A stretch of DNA of 64,000 nucleotides. It comes from Natrinema sp. DC36 (GTDB lineage Archaea > Halobacteriota > Halobacteria > Halobacteriales > Natrialbaceae). A program made the translations under genes and the position numbers. Numbering within the stretch: position 1 is the stretch's first letter; every line of letters starts with the position of its first letter. Below the pieces are notes generated by a model. It searched no databases and was not told the DNA's origin. It saw only the letters and a program-made list of their open reading frames with translations. Where the stretch lies: assembly GCF_020405225.1 (NCBI RefSeq), contig NZ_CP084472.1:1-64000 (forward strand), given 5' to 3'. Below are positions 2,567-57,884 of the stretch, one piece after another.

Positions 2567-3274
2567 ATGCACCGACTCGAACTCGAGCCCGGCGTAACGC
2601 TGTTACAGGTTCCGTCGTCCCGGTCGGGTATCGTCCACCGACTGGTCTGCGATCGGCTGGCAGACAGTGCGACCGGCGATGACCGCCCCGGGCGAGCCTA
2701 CTGGATCGACGCGCGGAACGCGGCCTCGACCCACGCGCTGTACGATGCCGCGTCGAGTCCGCGCGTCCTCGAGGGGCTGCGGGTCGCGCGGGCGTTTACC
2801 GCTTACCAGCACCACTCGCTGGTGCGGACCGTCGCGCGGCGGGCGGTGCCGGCGACCGAGTTGCTCGTCGCGCCGAACGTGGCCGCCCTCTACCGGGACG
2901 ACGACCTCGCGGCGTGGGAGCGCGAGGACCTGCTGACCGCGAGCCTCGAGATCCTCTCCGAACTGGGGGCCGTTCTCGACTGTCCGGTACTCCTGACGAG
3001 CGCCGGCGACGGGAGCGACTCTGACGCTGCCACCGCCTCGGAGACGGTCGCCGACTACGCCGAGACGGAAATCGAGTGTACGCGCACGCGAGAAGGGCTC
3101 CGACTCGAGGCCGCGGGCGACGGTTCGAACGCGGCGAGCGCGACGGCGGGCTACTGGCACGGCGACGTCTGGCAGACGACGATCCCCTACTGGGTCGAAC
3201 TCTGTGGTGCCGTCGACGCGGTCGATCCCGCCGTCGCCGCCCACGACCGGGGGCTGCTCGAGGTGGGTCCCTGA
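2567..3274 (+). CDS. RecA/RadA-like (ImuA-like) protein of the PolB2 operon
   Basis: 235 aa from ATG 2567. It is the first gene of a three-gene operon; its stop overlaps the next start (TGATG at 3272). The layout matches the RecA-superfamily partner that accompanies archaeal PolB2 genes. The N-terminus aligns in style with a RecA core, but where a Walker A lysine is expected the sequence reads VPSSRSGIVHRL, so the P-loop looks degenerate. A later hydrophobic strand (LDCPVLLTS) could be the Walker B region. By analogy with bacterial ImuA it may recruit or position the polymerase at damaged DNA. The family assignment leans on context. Confidence 0.65.
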   Translation: MHRLELEPGVTLLQVPSSRSGIVHRLVCDRLADSATGDDRPGRAYWIDARNAASTHALYDAASSPRVLEGLRVARAFTAYQHHSLVRTVARRAVPATELLVAPNVAALYRDDDLAAWEREDLLTASLEILSELGAVLDCPVLLTSAGDGSDSDAATASETVADYAETEIECTRTREGLRLEAAGDGSNAASATAGYWHGDVWQTTIPYWVELCGAVDAVDPAVAAHDRGLLEVGP

Positions 3275-3588
3275 TGGGGCGGACGAACCCGACCTACCGC
3301 GACGCGCTCCGGCGACTCGAGTCGGAGTGGGAGCCGATGGGCCGCGCGCTGCGCCGGGAGCACCAGGAGGACTTCGACCGGCTGTTCGACCGGGCCCGGG
3401 CGTTCGCCGACGCGGCGGGGTACGCCAACCCGCCCGAGCCCGAGCGGGCGTTCGTCCTGTCGCTGTTGCTCGCCCACGAGGCCGAACTACGTCGGTTGCG
3501 CGAGGCGCTCGCGGCGCTCGAGGACGAGTCGGATCGCGACCCTCGCGAGTCACGAGAGCGCGACCCCACCGGAGAGTCCGACGAATGA
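3274..3588 (+). CDS. Small charged helical protein in the PolB2 operon
   Basis: 104 aa, rich in Arg and Glu and predicted mostly helical (ALRRLESEWEPMGRALRREH). It is conserved next to this polymerase type in haloarchaea as far as I recall. Start ATG 3274 overlaps the stop of the RecA-like gene, and its own stop overlaps the polymerase start (ATGA at 3585), so all three are translationally coupled. No catalytic motif is visible; a scaffold or adaptor role is inference. The acidic/basic C-terminal tail (DESDRDPRESRERD) is low complexity. Confidence 0.75.
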   Translation: MGRTNPTYRDALRRLESEWEPMGRALRREHQEDFDRLFDRARAFADAAGYANPPEPERAFVLSLLLAHEAELRRLREALAALEDESDRDPRESRERDPTGESDE

Positions 3589-5843
3589 GCCCCTACACCG
3601 TCGAGTTCGAGGACGGCACCGTTCGCGAGTGGACCCTGACCGAATCGGGTGCCGAGCCCGCGGTCGTCGAGGATTACACCCCGTCGGTGTTCGTCTCCGG
3701 CCCGAACGACGCGCTCGCGGACCTGCGAGAGCGCCTCGAGGCGGATCCCAAAGTCGTCACGACTCGTTCCGAGCGGCGGCCGACGAGCCTCCACGAGGCC
3801 CACGCGGGCGAGCGAAGTCGAGTCCTGTGTGCCGACCTCGAGCGCGTCGGCGAGGTCCGGACGCTGGCCCGCGAGATTCGGGGCGTCCACGCACGCCGGA
3901 CGCACGCCCCCGGAACCGTTCGACTGTTCGACGTGGACCTCGCGCCGGGGTTTCGCTACTGTCTCGACCGCGGGCTCGATCCGACGCCGACGCGCGACCT
4001 GCGGACGCTCCGGCTCGCCCTCGACGAGGCCGCGCTGGCCAACGATGACGTGTCGGCGCTGGAAGTCGGGGGTGAGCCCGTCGACGGCGATGCGACGCGC
4101 GCGCTTCGGACGTGCCAACGCCGCCTCGAGCGGGCGGACCCTGACATCCTCGTCGTGAGCCACGCCGCGTTGATCCCGCTCCTCGAGCGCCGTGCCGAGG
4201 CACTGGGGCTCGCGGACTTTCATCTCGGACGGCTGCCGGGGTGGACCGCGCTCGCGGGCGAGAATACGTACGCGAGTTACGGGCGGGTGGGCCACTCGCC
4301 CGCGCGGTACCGGATTCCGGGGCGGGCGATCGTCGATACGTCGAACAGCTTCCTCTGGCACCAGTCGGGGCTGGCGGGGATCCGCTACATGGTCGAGCGG
4401 ACGGGTCGCCCGCTACAGGAGGCCGCGTGGGGAAGTATCGGCACGTTATTGACCTCGAGACAGATCCGGCTGGCCCGCGAAAAACGGGGCGTGCTCGCGC
4501 CGTGGAACAAGTGGGAACCCGAGCGCTTCACCGACGTCGAGACGCTGCACGCGGCCGACCGCGGCGGCTTCACGTTCGCCCCCGAGGTCGGCTTTCACGA
4601 GGACGTCCACGAGATCGACTTCGCGTCGCTGTATCCGCGGATCATCTGCGAGCGAAACGTCAGTCCGGAAACGGTCGGCTGTGACTGCGGGGCCGGCGAC
4701 GGGGCGGCTGCGACCGACGAGTCCGCCGCCGACGGGACGGCTGCGACCGACGAATCCGACGCCGGGACGCACCGCGTCCCCGAACTCGAGTACGAGATCT
4801 GCGAGACCGACGGTTTTCTCCCCGCCGTCCTCGAGCCTCTGATTGCCGACCGGGCCGAGATCAAGGGGCGACTCGAGGCCGATCTCCCCGAGGAGGAGGC
4901 CGCTCGGCTCCGGGCCGAGTCGGGCGCGATCAAGTGGGTCCTCGTCTCCTGTTTCGGCTATCAGGGCTACCGAAACGCCAAGTTCGGTCGGATCGAGTGC
5001 CACGAGGCGATCAACGCCTACGCTCGGGAGATCGCTCTGACCGCCAAACGCCGGCTCGAGGACGCGGGCTGGCGGATCGTCCACGGCATCGTCGACAGCC
5101 TCTGGGTGACGCCGCGAGTCGCCGAGCCGGAGCCGCTCGAGGCCGTGATCGGCGCGATTTCCGAAACGAGCGGGATTCCCCTCGAGCACGACGGCAGTTA
5201 CGAGTGGGTGTGTTTCGTGCCGCTGCGCGACTCGATCGGGAGTGTCGGCTCCGTCGAGGAAACCGGTGCCGACTCGACGCGTGCGAGCGGGGCGTCCGCG
5301 GGTGCGTTGACGAAATACTTCGGCAAGCGAACGAGCGGCGAGTACAAATTCCGCGGGATCGAACTGCGCCAGCGGAGCACGCCGGCGTTCGTCGCGGACG
5401 GTCAGCGGGCGTTCGTCGAGGCGCTCGACCGCGAGCGCGATCCCGGAGCAGTCTGTGATGTGCTCGGCCGACGATTGAACGAACTCCGGGAGGGACGCGT
5501 CGATCCGGCGGCGCTCGCGATCACGAAACGCGTCTCGAAGTCCCTCGCCGACTACGGCCGGCGGACCCACACCGTGGCCGCGCTCCAGCGGTACGACCGC
5601 CGCGGGATCGATCGCCATCCCGATCAGTCCGTCGAGTACGTCGTCACGGACGACGATTCGCGCGGCCCCGAGCGCGTCCGACTCGCGCTCGAGGATCCCT
5701 CGGAGTACGACGCCGACTACTACGCGACGCTGCTCGTGCGGGCCTGCGAGAGCGTCGTCTCGCCGCTGGGCTGGGATCGCGCCCGGATCCGGCGGTCGTT
5801 GCGCGACGGCCGGGCGGTGCGGCTGTCGACGTTCGTCGACTGA
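3585..5843 (+). CDS. B-family DNA polymerase, PolB2 type (motif C altered)
   Basis: 752 aa. Palm motif A DFASLYP is at residues 345-351 and motif B KWVLVSCFGYQGY at about 450-462. Motif C reads HGIVDS at 500-505 instead of YGDTDS, so one of the two catalytic aspartates is replaced by Ile while the second (D504) remains. The exonuclease I region reads FDVDLAP rather than FDxE. Such erosion characterises the archaeal PolB2/Dpo2 group, which in Sulfolobus is damage-inducible. An in-frame 11-residue duplication (4698-4763) lies after motif A. As last gene of a coupled operon with a RecA-like protein it resembles a mutagenic repair cassette. It could be weakly active or structural. Confidence 0.88.
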   Translation: MSPYTVEFEDGTVREWTLTESGAEPAVVEDYTPSVFVSGPNDALADLRERLEADPKVVTTRSERRPTSLHEAHAGERSRVLCADLERVGEVRTLAREIRGVHARRTHAPGTVRLFDVDLAPGFRYCLDRGLDPTPTRDLRTLRLALDEAALANDDVSALEVGGEPVDGDATRALRTCQRRLERADPDILVVSHAALIPLLERRAEALGLADFHLGRLPGWTALAGENTYASYGRVGHSPARYRIPGRAIVDTSNSFLWHQSGLAGIRYMVERTGRPLQEAAWGSIGTLLTSRQIRLAREKRGVLAPWNKWEPERFTDVETLHAADRGGFTFAPEVGFHEDVHEIDFASLYPRIICERNVSPETVGCDCGAGDGAAATDESAADGTAATDESDAGTHRVPELEYEICETDGFLPAVLEPLIADRAEIKGRLEADLPEEEAARLRAESGAIKWVLVSCFGYQGYRNAKFGRIECHEAINAYAREIALTAKRRLEDAGWRIVHGIVDSLWVTPRVAEPEPLEAVIGAISETSGIPLEHDGSYEWVCFVPLRDSIGSVGSVEETGADSTRASGASAGALTKYFGKRTSGEYKFRGIELRQRSTPAFVADGQRAFVEALDRERDPGAVCDVLGRRLNELREGRVDPAALAITKRVSKSLADYGRRTHTVAALQRYDRRGIDRHPDQSVEYVVTDDDSRGPERVRLALEDPSEYDADYYATLLVRACESVVSPLGWDRARIRRSLRDGRAVRLSTFVD
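4698..4763. repeat. 33-bp tandem duplication inside the PolB2 gene
   Basis: Two adjacent 33-bp copies (4698-4730, 4731-4763) differing at about four positions encode DGAAATDESAA and DGTAATDESDA. They form an acidic loop between motif A and the finger region, probably surface-exposed and tolerated. Confidence 0.75.
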
Positions 5844-44019: not shown

Positions 44020-44832
44020 TCAGCGGGGCCGCGCGAGCAGGACGGCCGCGAGAACGGCCACCGCACCGATCGCCGATCCGGCGGCGAAGCCGGGAACCGG
44101 TTCCGACGAATCCGATCTATCGGAGTCGTCTGGTCCATCGGATGCAGTCTCGTCCGCCGATTCGGTCCCCTCGTCCTGCGACGACGCGGCTGCCGGTCCG
44201 TTCTCGTCGACGGTGAGCGTCCCGGCCTCGAGCGCCGGCTCGATGCGGCCGCCGTCGTCGGCGTCGACCTGGGAATCCGTCACTCGCAGCGTCGTCGAAC
44301 CGGTCGCAGTCTCGGTGGCGTTCACCTCGACGGTCGCGAGGGTGACGTCGGTCGCACCCGGCGTCACTTCGTCGGTGAGGTCCGCGGCCTCGACGGTCAC
44401 CGATCGGCCGTCGGCGCTCGTGATCGGCTCGGTTGTCAGCCCGTACGCGTCGGGATAGCTGGCGTTCGAGACCGTCGCGGCGTTGCCGGACAGCTCGAGC
44501 GTGAACTCGAAGCCGGCGAGGCCGTCCGGCGCGTCGGTGAGCGCGATCCGGTGTGTCGCGGTGGTCCCGGGCTCGACGGTCGAATCGGTGACGACGAGCG
44601 TGCTCTCGGTCGCTGGCGTCGCTGCGGTGTCCACACCGGAGACGGACGGCGGCACCTCGCTCGCGGCCGCGATCGGAGCCGGAAGGGGCGCCAGACAGAC
44701 CGCGAGCCCGACGACGAGCGCCGCTACTGTCCGTCGCCACGATTTCAGCCACCCGATCGAATCCGACTCGTCAGCTCGGACCCGCCGTGCGGTCGTGGCC
44801 GAATCGGCGTCCGGTCGTTCCATCCGCCTCAC
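44020..44832 (-). CDS. Cell-surface cohesin-like protein with PGF-CTERM anchor
   Basis: 270 aa. N-terminal cytoplasmic stretch then a hydrophobic signal at about 33-57 (RRTVAALVVGLAVCLAPLPA). A cohesin-like domain at about 78-205 (STVEPGTTATHRIAL; DAPDGLAGFEFTLELSGNAA; TPGATDVTLATVEV). Acidic Ser/Asp linker, then PVPGFAAGSAIGAVAVLAAV and a basic end: a PGF-CTERM signal. ATG overlaps the stop of the PhoX-like gene by four bases (44829-44832), so they are coupled. The cohesin resembles that of the upstream protein closely. Confidence 0.82.
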   Translation of the reverse strand: MRRMERPDADSATTARRVRADESDSIGWLKSWRRTVAALVVGLAVCLAPLPAPIAAASEVPPSVSGVDTAATPATESTLVVTDSTVEPGTTATHRIALTDAPDGLAGFEFTLELSGNAATVSNASYPDAYGLTTEPITSADGRSVTVEAADLTDEVTPGATDVTLATVEVNATETATGSTTLRVTDSQVDADDGGRIEPALEAGTLTVDENGPAAASSQDEGTESADETASDGPDDSDRSDSSEPVPGFAAGSAIGAVAVLAAVLLARPR

Positions 44833-47459
44833 AGCTCGTCGTACAGTTCGTCGATGTCGTCGTAGTCGATGCGGCCGTTCTCGTTGAAGTCGTAGGCGTC
44901 GGCGTTGAGCGTCACCGAGTCGTCCTCGATGTGATCGAACAGCAAGACGACGTCGTCGTAGTCGAGTCGACCGTTGCCGTTGGTGTCCTCGAATCGACCG
45001 TCGCCGTCCGGATCGGTCGGTGCCCTGCCGGAACCGCCCGGCCCGCCACCGATCGGCGGTGGGCCGGTAACCACGACGCCGGGACGGCGCTGGGGTTCGA
45101 TAGCGGCCCCGTCGTCGTCGTCCAGCGCCTGCACGTCGACCGTGATATCCGTCGTTCCGGTCCCGACACCCTCGAGTTCGACGCTCGCCAGCGTCACGTT
45201 CATCGCGCCGGGCTCGATCTCCTCGTCGAGATCGGCGAACTTGAACGCGACCGTCGACCCGTCATCGCTGATCGTTGGGCCGGCGGTGAGTTCGAGCGCG
45301 TCGTGGTACGTTGCACCCGTGATTTCGGCGACGTCGGTGTGCTCGAGGCAGACGGTGACGCGACCGCCGGCGAGGCCGTCCGGAACCGACGAGAGCGTCA
45401 GATCGACTTCTCCCGTCACCCCCTGACCGACGGCGACGGAGTCGACGTGCAGCGACGTCGGCGGCTCGTAGACCCACATCGCGTCGTTGGGATACGAGCG
45501 GCCGAAGCTTCCCTTATCCTCACAGAGGAGGACGCGGCCGTCGTCCATCACCATGACGTTGTCGACGTTGATGAGCGAGACGTCTTTCAGGGATTCGGGG
45601 TCGCTCCCGTTCGGACCGACGACGACGGGCTCGAGCCGGGAGACGTCGTACCCGTCCTCGAGTTCGGCGCGATAGAGGACGCCGCTTTCGACCTCGTCGA
45701 ATCGGAGCTCGCCTTGATCGTCGGTCATGTAGCCGCCGAGCGAGGAGATGCCGAAGTAGATGAAGTCGCCGGGCTCGGCCTCGTCGTGGGAGTCGATCCC
45801 TTCGGCCTTGTTGAACTCGATGCTCGCGCCGATCTCCTTGGCGGCCGCTCGGGTCTCGAGGAAAGGGACGCGGCGAAGGTCATCGTCGACGCCGTCGGGG
45901 CCGTGTGCCTCGTACTGAGCTGCCCACTCGACGATCTCCTCGTCGGTGATGTAGTCCCGGTTGCCGTTGATCGCGACTTCCTCATCGGCTTCCGCGAGCG
46001 CGGTCTCGAGATCGGCTTCCCAGTCGGTTTCGGCGTGGGTCTCGAGGTAATCGACCTGCGTGATATCGTCGTAGTCGGCGATCCAGGACTCGACCTCGGC
46101 GTTGCTCGCGGTACCGAGTTCGAGCCACTCGACCTCGAGATCCGTCTCGGCGACCGGCCCCTCGCCGATCTCGCTCGCTTGCAGGGCGTACAGCGTCCCG
46201 CGAACGTCCATTCGACTGTCGTACTCGGGAATCGGCTCGTCGGCGACGAATTTGTAGATCCCCTTCGCGCCGCCGTCGGAGGCGAGGTAGACGGTTCGCT
46301 CGTCGGGCAGGACCTCGGGACACTCCCAGGCGGCCCGACCGAAGACGTGGTGTTTGACCGGCGTCGGCTCTTCGGCGGTCGGGTCGGCGATCTCGACGAT
46401 CTTGCCGTAGCGATAGCGGTTGGGGAACTCGTCGTCGATGGGCGTTCGCGTGTTGCCCGCTTCAGTCCGGTCGACGGGCTCGGCACCGAGATAGTAGGCG
46501 AGCTTCTCGACGCCGCTGTTCGCCCAGAGCCCCATCGGCGACCAGGCGTCGTCGGCGAAGATGTCCTCGAGGGAGTTCCCGACCTCGGTGATGTTGGGAC
46601 GGTTGTAGAACTCGCTGCCCCCGCGCAGGCCGACGCCGCTGCCCTGTTCGACGATGTCGCTTACCGTCGCGAGCCCGTTGACGCGCGGATGACCGTAGTC
46701 TTCCTCAGCGGAGAGGGGCGTCTCCCACGGACTCAGATCGCCGTAGCAGTTGATCTTCGTGCCGCCGATGTCGCGGAACGCCGCCTGGTTCTCGATCTCG
46801 GCCGCGTTCTCGAGATCGGCGTCCCAGCTGCCGTTCGTCCGGCTAATCGGTGTCCGCGTGATGGCTCCGGGTGTGGTCTCGTTGTTCGTGAAGAGGTAGC
46901 CCTCGGTGCCGTCCTCGGTCGTCGAGACGAAGAAGTTCATGTCGGGGTTGTGGCCGACGCCCTCGTAGCTTTCGCCGACGACGTCGGCGATATCGGTCCC
47001 GTCGGGCGTCTCGGGATGGCCCCACCTCTCGGTGCCGCCGTTGATCGGGTCTCCCTCCTGGACGAGGTATGCGTACTCGCCACCCGCCGAGAGCACCCGC
47101 CCCTGTTCGCTCTCGGTGCGCGGCGGCTCGAGTTCGGCGAAGTCGTCGTTACTCCCGTTGAAAGTGAACTGGAACCCCTCGAAGACGCCGATCCCGGCCT
47201 GGTCGAACGGTTCCGGGTTGTCCCGACTCGGATGCTGGACGCTGTAGAGGAGTTCGCCCGTCTCGAAGACGAACGGGCCCGTGACCTCCGCGCCTCGAGC
47301 CGTCGTCGAGAACCGCTTGATGCTCCCCTCGATGTACGGTGCGTCCAGCGTCTCGTGCTCGTCTCTCCCGTCCTGTGCGCCGGCGACGCCGACCGCTCCG
47401 GTGCTGATGGCTGCCGCGACTGACGATGCCATCAAGTTCCGCCTGGTAAATTCGACCAT
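44829..47459 (-). CDS. Tat-exported PhoX-like protein with cohesin and dockerin
   Basis: 876 aa. Twin-arginine signal TRRNLMASSVAAA at residues 5-17. DUF839/PhoX-like propeller at about 40-660 (GGEYAYLVQEGDPINGGTERWG; TVYLASDGGAKGIYKFVADE; RVLLCEDKGSFGRSYPNDAM). Cohesin-like domain at about 670-795 (VTGEVDLTLSSVPDGLAGGR; EPGAMNVTLASVELEG). Dockerin-type C-terminus at about 825-876 with two calcium loops, DTNGNGRLDYDD and DFNENGRIDYDD. PhoX enzymes are Ca/Fe phosphatases; catalytic residues were not verified here, so activity is inferred from family. It is coupled to the downstream cohesin protein, which its dockerin could bind. Confidence 0.85.
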   Translation of the reverse strand: MVEFTRRNLMASSVAAAISTGAVGVAGAQDGRDEHETLDAPYIEGSIKRFSTTARGAEVTGPFVFETGELLYSVQHPSRDNPEPFDQAGIGVFEGFQFTFNGSNDDFAELEPPRTESEQGRVLSAGGEYAYLVQEGDPINGGTERWGHPETPDGTDIADVVGESYEGVGHNPDMNFFVSTTEDGTEGYLFTNNETTPGAITRTPISRTNGSWDADLENAAEIENQAAFRDIGGTKINCYGDLSPWETPLSAEEDYGHPRVNGLATVSDIVEQGSGVGLRGGSEFYNRPNITEVGNSLEDIFADDAWSPMGLWANSGVEKLAYYLGAEPVDRTEAGNTRTPIDDEFPNRYRYGKIVEIADPTAEEPTPVKHHVFGRAAWECPEVLPDERTVYLASDGGAKGIYKFVADEPIPEYDSRMDVRGTLYALQASEIGEGPVAETDLEVEWLELGTASNAEVESWIADYDDITQVDYLETHAETDWEADLETALAEADEEVAINGNRDYITDEEIVEWAAQYEAHGPDGVDDDLRRVPFLETRAAAKEIGASIEFNKAEGIDSHDEAEPGDFIYFGISSLGGYMTDDQGELRFDEVESGVLYRAELEDGYDVSRLEPVVVGPNGSDPESLKDVSLINVDNVMVMDDGRVLLCEDKGSFGRSYPNDAMWVYEPPTSLHVDSVAVGQGVTGEVDLTLSSVPDGLAGGRVTVCLEHTDVAEITGATYHDALELTAGPTISDDGSTVAFKFADLDEEIEPGAMNVTLASVELEGVGTGTTDITVDVQALDDDDGAAIEPQRRPGVVVTGPPPIGGGPGGSGRAPTDPDGDGRFEDTNGNGRLDYDDVVLLFDHIEDDSVTLNADAYDFNENGRIDYDDIDELYDEL

Positions 47460-47752
47460 GCAAGCGGAGCAACCCCCGATTAATTAATGAGATTTTATAA
47501 TAGATGCACGTAGGACGGTATAGAATCTACTAGTCTACTGCTGATACTATAGTCGATCGAGCGCTCTAACGACTATTGGTCGATATATAGGCAAACGGTG
47601 AGCAGTGTTCCGGTGAGCAGTGTTCAGACGATGATTCCGGACGTCGTCCAAACCGATGGTAGTTGCTCCAATAACCGATCGGTGAATCAATCGAATCGAG
47701 TGTAACGGTGGTGCGGAAAAGGAGTCGTTCGTGACTGCGGACCGTCGCGGGC
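47460..47752. other. Intergenic region with PhoX promoter and a 15-bp duplication
   Basis: 293 bases, AT-rich near the PhoX start. Box A at 47491-47500 (minus strand TTATAAAATC) gives a short leader. CGGTGAGCAGTGTTC is perfectly duplicated in tandem at 47596-47625. No gene seen. Confidence 0.55.
47491..47500 (-). promoter_or_regulatory. Box A of the PhoX-like gene
   Basis: TTATAAAATC on the minus strand, about 36 bases before ATG 47459; the strongest TATA-like element in the window. Confidence 0.6.
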
Positions 47753-57089: not shown

Positions 57090-57884
57090 ATGCCTCCCGA
57101 ACGCGAGGACGGTGGCCGCGATGTCCCGACGAGCGTCGCTCGCATCGCTGTCAGTATCGGTCTCGCCGTCCTGCTCGTTCTCTCGATGACGGGCGTCGCG
57201 GGAACGGCCGCCGCGATCGATCAGGTTGCGATCCTCTCGCCGGAGCAGCGGACGGTCGAAGCCGCACCCGGCGAGACGATCGAGATCGACGTCGTCCTCC
57301 GGAGTCAGGGCGGCCACGGTGGCGAGGGCGTTTCGGGAGTCGCGCTGGTCGCTCAGTACCATCCCGACTACGTCGAGATCACCGACGTCGAACGGGGGCC
57401 GTGGCTCGAGGGCGACGGGACCGAAATCCGGACGACGGAACGGATCGCCCCCGAGCGGGGGACGGCGGTCCTTGACCAGCGCCGCGAGCCAGCCGCGGGC
57501 GGGACGACCGGAGCGGGGACGATCGCGACCCTGTCCGTCCGGGTCGCCGACGACGCACCCGCCGGCGCGACGACGATTTCGTTCGACGGGACAGACGTGG
57601 ATCTCACCGGCGACTGGCCGATCGCCGTCGTCGACGAATCCGTGACCGTCGCGATCGACGGCGGCGACGAACCGCTCGAGACGTTCGCCCACCCCGATCC
57701 GGACGGACTGGACCTCGAGGCCGAGGGGGGTGGGAGTGAGAAGGACTCGAGCGACGCTGACGGACGGGCGGCCGATAGCGGGGACGATCTGCCTGTTCCT
57801 GGCTTTACGATCGGGGCCACGTTGGTGGCCGTTGTGCTCGCGGTGCTCCGGTTGACAGCCGCTCGTGACGGTCCTCCCAGATAA
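57090..57884 (+). CDS. Cohesin-domain protein with PGF-CTERM anchor
   Basis: 264 aa. Signal segment at about 15-42 (VARIAVSIGLAVLLVLSMTG), cohesin domain at about 45-190 (VEAAPGETIEIDVVLRSQGG; SGVALVAQYHPDYVEITDVE; TGAGTIATLSVRVADDAPAG; DLTGDWPIAVVDESVTVAI), Asp/Ser linker, then PVPGFTIGATLVAVVLAVLR, a PGF-CTERM signal. The sequence differs from the 44.0-kb cohesin. Possible surface acceptor for dockerin proteins. Confidence 0.85.
   Translation: MPPEREDGGRDVPTSVARIAVSIGLAVLLVLSMTGVAGTAAAIDQVAILSPEQRTVEAAPGETIEIDVVLRSQGGHGGEGVSGVALVAQYHPDYVEITDVERGPWLEGDGTEIRTTERIAPERGTAVLDQRREPAAGGTTGAGTIATLSVRVADDAPAGATTISFDGTDVDLTGDWPIAVVDESVTVAIDGGDEPLETFAHPDPDGLDLEAEGGGSEKDSSDADGRAADSGDDLPVPGFTIGATLVAVVLAVLRLTAARDGPPR

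Follow-up and report, generated by a model that had tools for sequence, protein, structure and literature searches.

A haloarchaeal PhoX phosphatase homologue with a cohesin-dockerin tail and an adjoining membrane-anchored cohesin: a probable surface-tethering cassette

In the work of Bayer in 1999 and of Voronov-Goldman in 2011, the protein AF2375 of Archaeoglobus fulgidus is said to hold both a cohesin and a dockerin. Its dockerin tightly binds the cohesin AF2376, which is encoded next to it (PMC9705933). This pair, in neighbouring genes of a non-cellulolytic archaeon, is the closest precedent for the locus described here, a two-gene unit on the minus strand of a 64,000-nucleotide window (positions 1 to 64,000 of contig NZ_CP084472.1, Natrinema sp. 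DC36), in which a gene for a PhoX-Cohesin-Dockerin protein comes first and a gene for a cohesin with a hydrophobic C-terminus (the anchor-cohesin gene) comes second. The architecture of a cohesin- and dockerin-bearing protein beside a cohesin protein is thus already known from AF2375/AF2376. What sets the present locus apart is the PhoX enzyme as bearer of both modules, the putative C-terminal membrane segment of its partner and the conservation of the pair across many genera. We consider it probable that this cassette tethers the extracellular phosphatase PhoX to the cell surface through its dockerin and the cohesin of the anchor protein.

Other described systems share individual traits with the locus. 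The cellulosome of Clostridium thermocellum (CipA/OlpA/SdbA) likewise combines a dockerin on the enzyme with a cohesin at the surface and type I-like modules, whereas the cassette comes without a multi-cohesin scaffoldin or carbohydrate enzymes, and the enzyme itself bears a cohesin. No multi-cohesin protein was found in the own genome by profile search, which places it outside the definition of a cellulosome as a scaffoldin with dockerin-bearing cellulases. The GH84C and GH33 cohesins of Clostridium perfringens (2w1n, 2vo8, 2jh2; Z 15-15.6 to the anchor cohesin) lie within secreted non-cellulosomal enzymes, but the matched constructs have a cohesin and not a cohesin-dockerin tandem, and their catalytic domains are unrelated to PhoX. 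For anaerobic methanotrophic archaea (ANME), the accessible part of one study proposes that cohesin-dockerin proteins join functional domains at the cell surface, and that part describes no phosphatase pair (PMC9012536). A PhoX fused to both cohesin and dockerin, held to be novel in the preliminary description of this DNA, has no description in the open literature searched, although a subscription paper could exist.

Both genes are present as first set out. The first (44829..47459; all features of the pair are on the minus strand) encodes 876 amino acids (aa), begins with MVEFTRRNLMASSVAAAISTGAVGVAGAQ and has full-length homologues in many haloarchaea. Its signal peptide (TRRNLM..., 47376..47459) is of the twin-arginine translocation (Tat) type, and R6, R7 and L9 are invariant in 25 homologues. 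The catalytic domain (aa 35-665, 45465..47357) matches Pfam PF05787 above the cut-off (92.8 bits vs 24, E 3.8e-26); no NCBIfam family matched the protein. C238, E253, E379 and D395 are invariant in the same 25 homologues. In Pseudomonas fluorescens PhoX (3zwu, 4a9v) they align with C179, E194, E273 and D292, the other ligands not being alignable. In the PhoX structure paper, C179, E194 and E273, together with D292, are reported to be iron/calcium ligands. D292 is treated as an active-site residue of PhoX (PMC11098088). The two proteins belong to the same catalytic domain family, but their overall similarity is low and the aligned P. fluorescens chain gives no cohesin or dockerin match. Family membership and conserved residues make the protein a likely phosphatase.

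The two cohesin modules, one in the PhoX protein (aa ~667-800, 45060..45461) and one in the anchor protein (aa ~76-210, 44203..44607), were both missed by Pfam PF00963, and neither found a cohesin in a sequence search of the PDB, where the anchor alignment gave no hit. AlphaFold2 models were built from alignments of 25 (PhoX module) and 23 (anchor module) relatives, the latter with a predicted local distance difference test score of 84.9. For the PhoX module, all listed Foldseek matches were cohesins (E 2e-10; VIA Z 15.3, root-mean-square deviation 2.1 over 130 residues); for the anchor module, 49 of the 50 listed matches were (E 1.9e-9; VIA Z 16.1, 2.1 over 130 residues). The A. fulgidus cohesin 2xdh is among the best structural matches of both models (VIA Z 15-16). 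As modelled, both modules have the cohesin beta-sandwich fold, and this fold-level evidence outweighs the absent Pfam match. They share 39% identity (E 1.5e-14, genome search), in keeping with the close relationship initially noticed between the cohesin of the enzyme and that of the downstream gene. Among Natrinema relatives, the ratio of non-synonymous to synonymous polymorphism (pN/pS) is 0.33-0.44 for both cohesins and the dockerin against 0.37 for the enzyme core, and 0.80-0.87 for the linker (0.80) and N-terminus of the anchor protein, which are nearly unconstrained. Constraint on the modules is therefore about equal to that on the enzyme core and, together with their retention across haloarchaea, excludes a chance resemblance.

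The dockerin (aa 818-876, 44832..45008) is weak by single sequence and good by profile and conservation. Alone, it reaches E 0.035 and 14.7 bits with Pfam PF00404 (cut-off 22.9); a profile built from 25 relatives picks up the C. thermocellum CelS dockerin (E 0.001), with EF-hand proteins scoring about equally. Homologous tails on other enzymes (L083, L086, L106, L167, L170) exceed the Pfam dockerin cut-off. The two 12-residue calcium loops, DTNGNGRLDYDD (aa 825-836, nt 44952-44987) and DFNENGRIDYDD (aa 857-868, nt 44856-44891), carry D-N-N-D-D ligands at positions 1, 3, 5, 9 and 12 in 40/40 and 39-40/40 relatives, respectively. By this type I ligand pattern the loop pair is best read as a two-loop dockerin, as originally proposed, and the profile and structure searches that might have disproved the module identities did not do so.

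The anchor-cohesin gene (44020..44832) encodes 270 aa from a GTG at 44832, which gives a 4-nt GTGA overlap with the PhoX gene, or 267 aa from an ATG at 44823, just after the PhoX stop. That the second gene begins at the stop of the first stands; the overlap given in the preliminary description is likely and not certain, because the ATG start would give none. The protein consists of a hydrophobic N-terminal segment, probably a signal peptide (44671..44727; mean hydropathy 2.25 over 19 residues), the cohesin, a Ser/Asp-rich linker and a hydrophobic C-terminal helix with a PVPGF motif (44023..44202; hydropathy 2.32). EPVPGFAAGSAIGAVAVLAAVLLARPR is seen at the C-terminus, without an NCBIfam PGF-CTERM match; the NCBIfam search of the whole protein returned weak, chance-like matches only. 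A PGF-type end, as claimed earlier, is shared by this genome with its close relatives, while other homologues retain the hydrophobic segment or helix only, so that it is a lineage-specific detail. In the single annotated relative examined the protein is labelled just "hypothetical". With this label, and with Pfam blind to both cohesins, the system appears to have been overlooked.

The association of enzyme and anchor, first noticed in this one genome, extends across many genera. Among named genomes, the anchor-cohesin gene lies directly downstream of 44 of the 49 tailed PhoX genes (at one of these 44 loci a second PhoX-Cohesin-Dockerin copy comes next, then the anchor gene). A second, partly overlapping set gives 34/37 for tailed genes, as against 0/46 for tail-less ones; of the three tailed genes in it that lack the anchor next to them, L005 leads a tandem pair. 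Natrinema gari (L034), a species in which genome editing is reported for strain J7-2 (PMC10433800), has the pair as well. In Natronococcus (L022, L221), a PhoX 79-80% identical to that of the window ends at the module boundary and has neither tail nor anchor gene after it. The open reading frame following the tail-less PhoX of N. jeotgali encodes the cystathionine-lyase homologue that the window has after the anchor gene; a single deletion of tail and anchor is the simplest reading. Judged from the constraint on the modules and from this distribution, the pair forms a unit of selection. Several tail-less PhoX proteins (L235, L258, L261, L269) have a hydrophobic C-terminal segment of their own, some PGF-like, and the tail therefore looks like one of several routes to surface retention. 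The same distribution bears on a reading in which the tail binds substrate or a cell-surface glycan, or merely stabilises the enzyme. Dockerins of haloarchaeal polysaccharide-degrading enzymes are indeed assigned a substrate-binding role, stated without a binding test in the accessible parts of two papers (PMC10963439, PMC13260240); with the cohesin partner gene adjoining tailed PhoX only, and both partner folds present, we regard such a role as highly improbable here. As a separate observation, apparent frameshifts split the PhoX-Cohesin-Dockerin frame at L021, L023 and L041 and leave the anchor gene intact, which may reflect sequencing error or decay.

In the tether we propose, PhoX would leave the cell by the Tat route, and the small anchor protein would be exported to display a single cohesin, with its C-terminal segment keeping it in the membrane. 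The calcium-bound dockerin of PhoX would then dock into this cohesin, a likely interaction, and PhoX would need no covalent anchor to remain at the surface. The cohesin of PhoX would stay free as a socket for a further dockerin, on a second PhoX or, where a genome encodes them, on a PhoD, a 5'-nucleotidase or another enzyme with the same tail; such uptake of another enzyme, and with it the growth of chains, is plausible. What the modules are, that the genes are coupled and that tail and anchor are lost together is established computationally, and the tether is the most economical account. Since the pairing recurs in many haloarchaea, phosphate-scavenging enzymes are probably clipped onto the surface of these cells much as cellulosomes are built by some bacteria. 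Archaeal cohesin-dockerin modules, puzzling since 1999, would thereby gain a conserved job in the surface retention of haloarchaeal extracellular phosphorus enzymes.

Several points weigh against this account. An adjacent anchor cohesin is missing at L026 and at five loci of tailed PhoX (three from Halegenticoccus, one each from Halocatena and Halalkalicoccus), and tethering therefore cannot be the sole role of the tail. The window also encodes a third cohesin (57090-57884, plus strand), divergent and ending in a PGF-type tail, which could likewise bind the PhoX dockerin; a HerA-like ATPase gene comes directly after it. It is a signal peptide-cohesin-PGF protein with a PF00963 match at 57252-57596 (E 1e-6), and this match weakens the notion that the dockerin has only two possible partners in this genome. 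G315, a genome lacking cohesin-dockerin proteins, has a PF00963 cohesin too, and the third window cohesin is thus probably unrelated. In favour of the account, the divergence of the dockerin correlates, beyond that of the enzyme core, with that of both cohesins: with its own cohesin at partial r 0.57 and with the anchor cohesin at 0.45 (permutation p 0.0005), a correlation that can also stem from linkage and shared transfer. As a partner test it fails to tell the PhoX cohesin and the anchor cohesin apart.

In the own genome, the A1 profile (E <= 1) found no dockerin besides that of PhoX, and profile search found only two cohesins of the PhoX/anchor type. In the genomes of Halegenticoccus soli, Halocatena and Halalkalicoccus, the PhoX-Cohesin-Dockerin protein is the only cohesin found by profile searches, which suggests self-association there, in trans as chains or in cis as a lock. 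The self-assembly raised as a possibility in the preliminary description is compatible with both results, as far as sequence searches reach. In the trans form, each tailed enzyme would be its own scaffold, its dockerin binding the cohesin of the next subunit and the anchor starting the chain, which would give mixed surface fibres of phosphorus enzymes. We hold this possible, if only tentatively. It would accommodate not only the sole cohesins of the three genera but also that of N. jeotgali, where a PhoD-Cohesin-Dockerin protein is the only cohesin found by profile search, and the tandem PhoX-Cohesin-Dockerin copies followed by one anchor gene in L040 (tandem copies also occur in G022, G055 and G267). 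Haloarchaeal PhoD phosphatases with the tail fit as well: none of six loci has an adjacent anchor, and six of the seven genomes with such a PhoD, among 293, also carry PhoX-Cohesin-Dockerin, itself present in 65/293, although these counts span four genera and are not independent. Chain growth would be blocked if the dockerin closed in cis on its own cohesin.

Such cis closure would fold the dockerin onto the cohesin of the same chain and so form a stabilised cap at the C-terminus, to be opened or displaced by the anchor cohesin; it seems unlikely to us. The order of the modules and the short spacer between them (the profile matches lie 8-16 residues apart in 49 PhoX proteins and 7-17 apart in nearly all other tandem proteins) would suit it, as would the genomes in which no other cohesin was found. 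It leaves the conserved adjacent anchor cohesin unexplained, however, and the corresponding AlphaFold2 model (predicted TM-score 0.64) is too poorly resolved to judge docking.

Targeted scans, and one covering 84,980 species genomes, show cohesin-dockerin tandems to be widespread in archaea. Besides PhoX and PhoD, the tail was identified in haloarchaea on a glycerophosphodiesterase with its own adjoining anchor gene (L077), on 5'-nucleotidases (L086 and L167, the latter with an adjoining cohesin gene) and on SNase-domain proteins with adjoining anchors (L081, L089, L100, L159). Of ~35 tandem proteins tallied by hand in 116 evenly sampled genomes, ~21 are phosphorus enzymes; a restriction of the tail to them was rejected, the remainder being Glug, PKD/CARDB and multi-cohesin proteins. 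We advance with considerable doubt the broader view that haloarchaea build scaffoldin-free phosphorus-scavenging assemblies, in which PhoX, PhoD, 5'-nucleotidase, glycerophosphodiesterase and nuclease-domain proteins would each be enzyme and scaffold unit at once and a membrane cohesin would start the chain. If true, such assemblies would do for phosphorus what the cellulosome does for cellulose, but be put together on another logic. The prediction is of enzyme chains without a separate scaffold, and salt-stable binding modules would be on offer.

The layout of a cohesin-dockerin protein gene followed by a cohesin gene was also found with a subtilase in ANME-2 (L097), in the same order as PhoX and anchor, with an LVIVD beta-propeller in Archaeoglobaceae (L098) and with an unknown protein in Thermoproteaceae (L094); the cassette is therefore not confined to haloarchaea. 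Whether the Archaeoglobaceae pair is closely homologous to the A. fulgidus cohesin of known structure was tested by sequence, and no match emerged.

The PhoX start is preceded, at a distance of 34-43 nt, by a TATA-box-like element, TATTATAAAA (47493..47502, minus strand), whose core, TATTATAAA, is present in 20/20 related upstream regions compared. Multi-cohesin scaffoldins are said to be absent from archaea outside ANME, according to a paper citing a 2009 survey (PMC9012536). We observed scaffoldin-like haloarchaeal proteins with three cohesins and a dockerin in L165 (G115; 2626-4272), L099 (3876-5582), L173 (1494-3452) and L164 (1076-3385), in several cases adjoining dockerin-bearing proteins, e.g., a 3-keto-disaccharide hydrolase/malectin protein in L099. 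A bacterial protein of 481 aa from Candidatus Fraserbacteria (L105, 4884-6326) consists solely of cohesin-dockerin-cohesin-dockerin.

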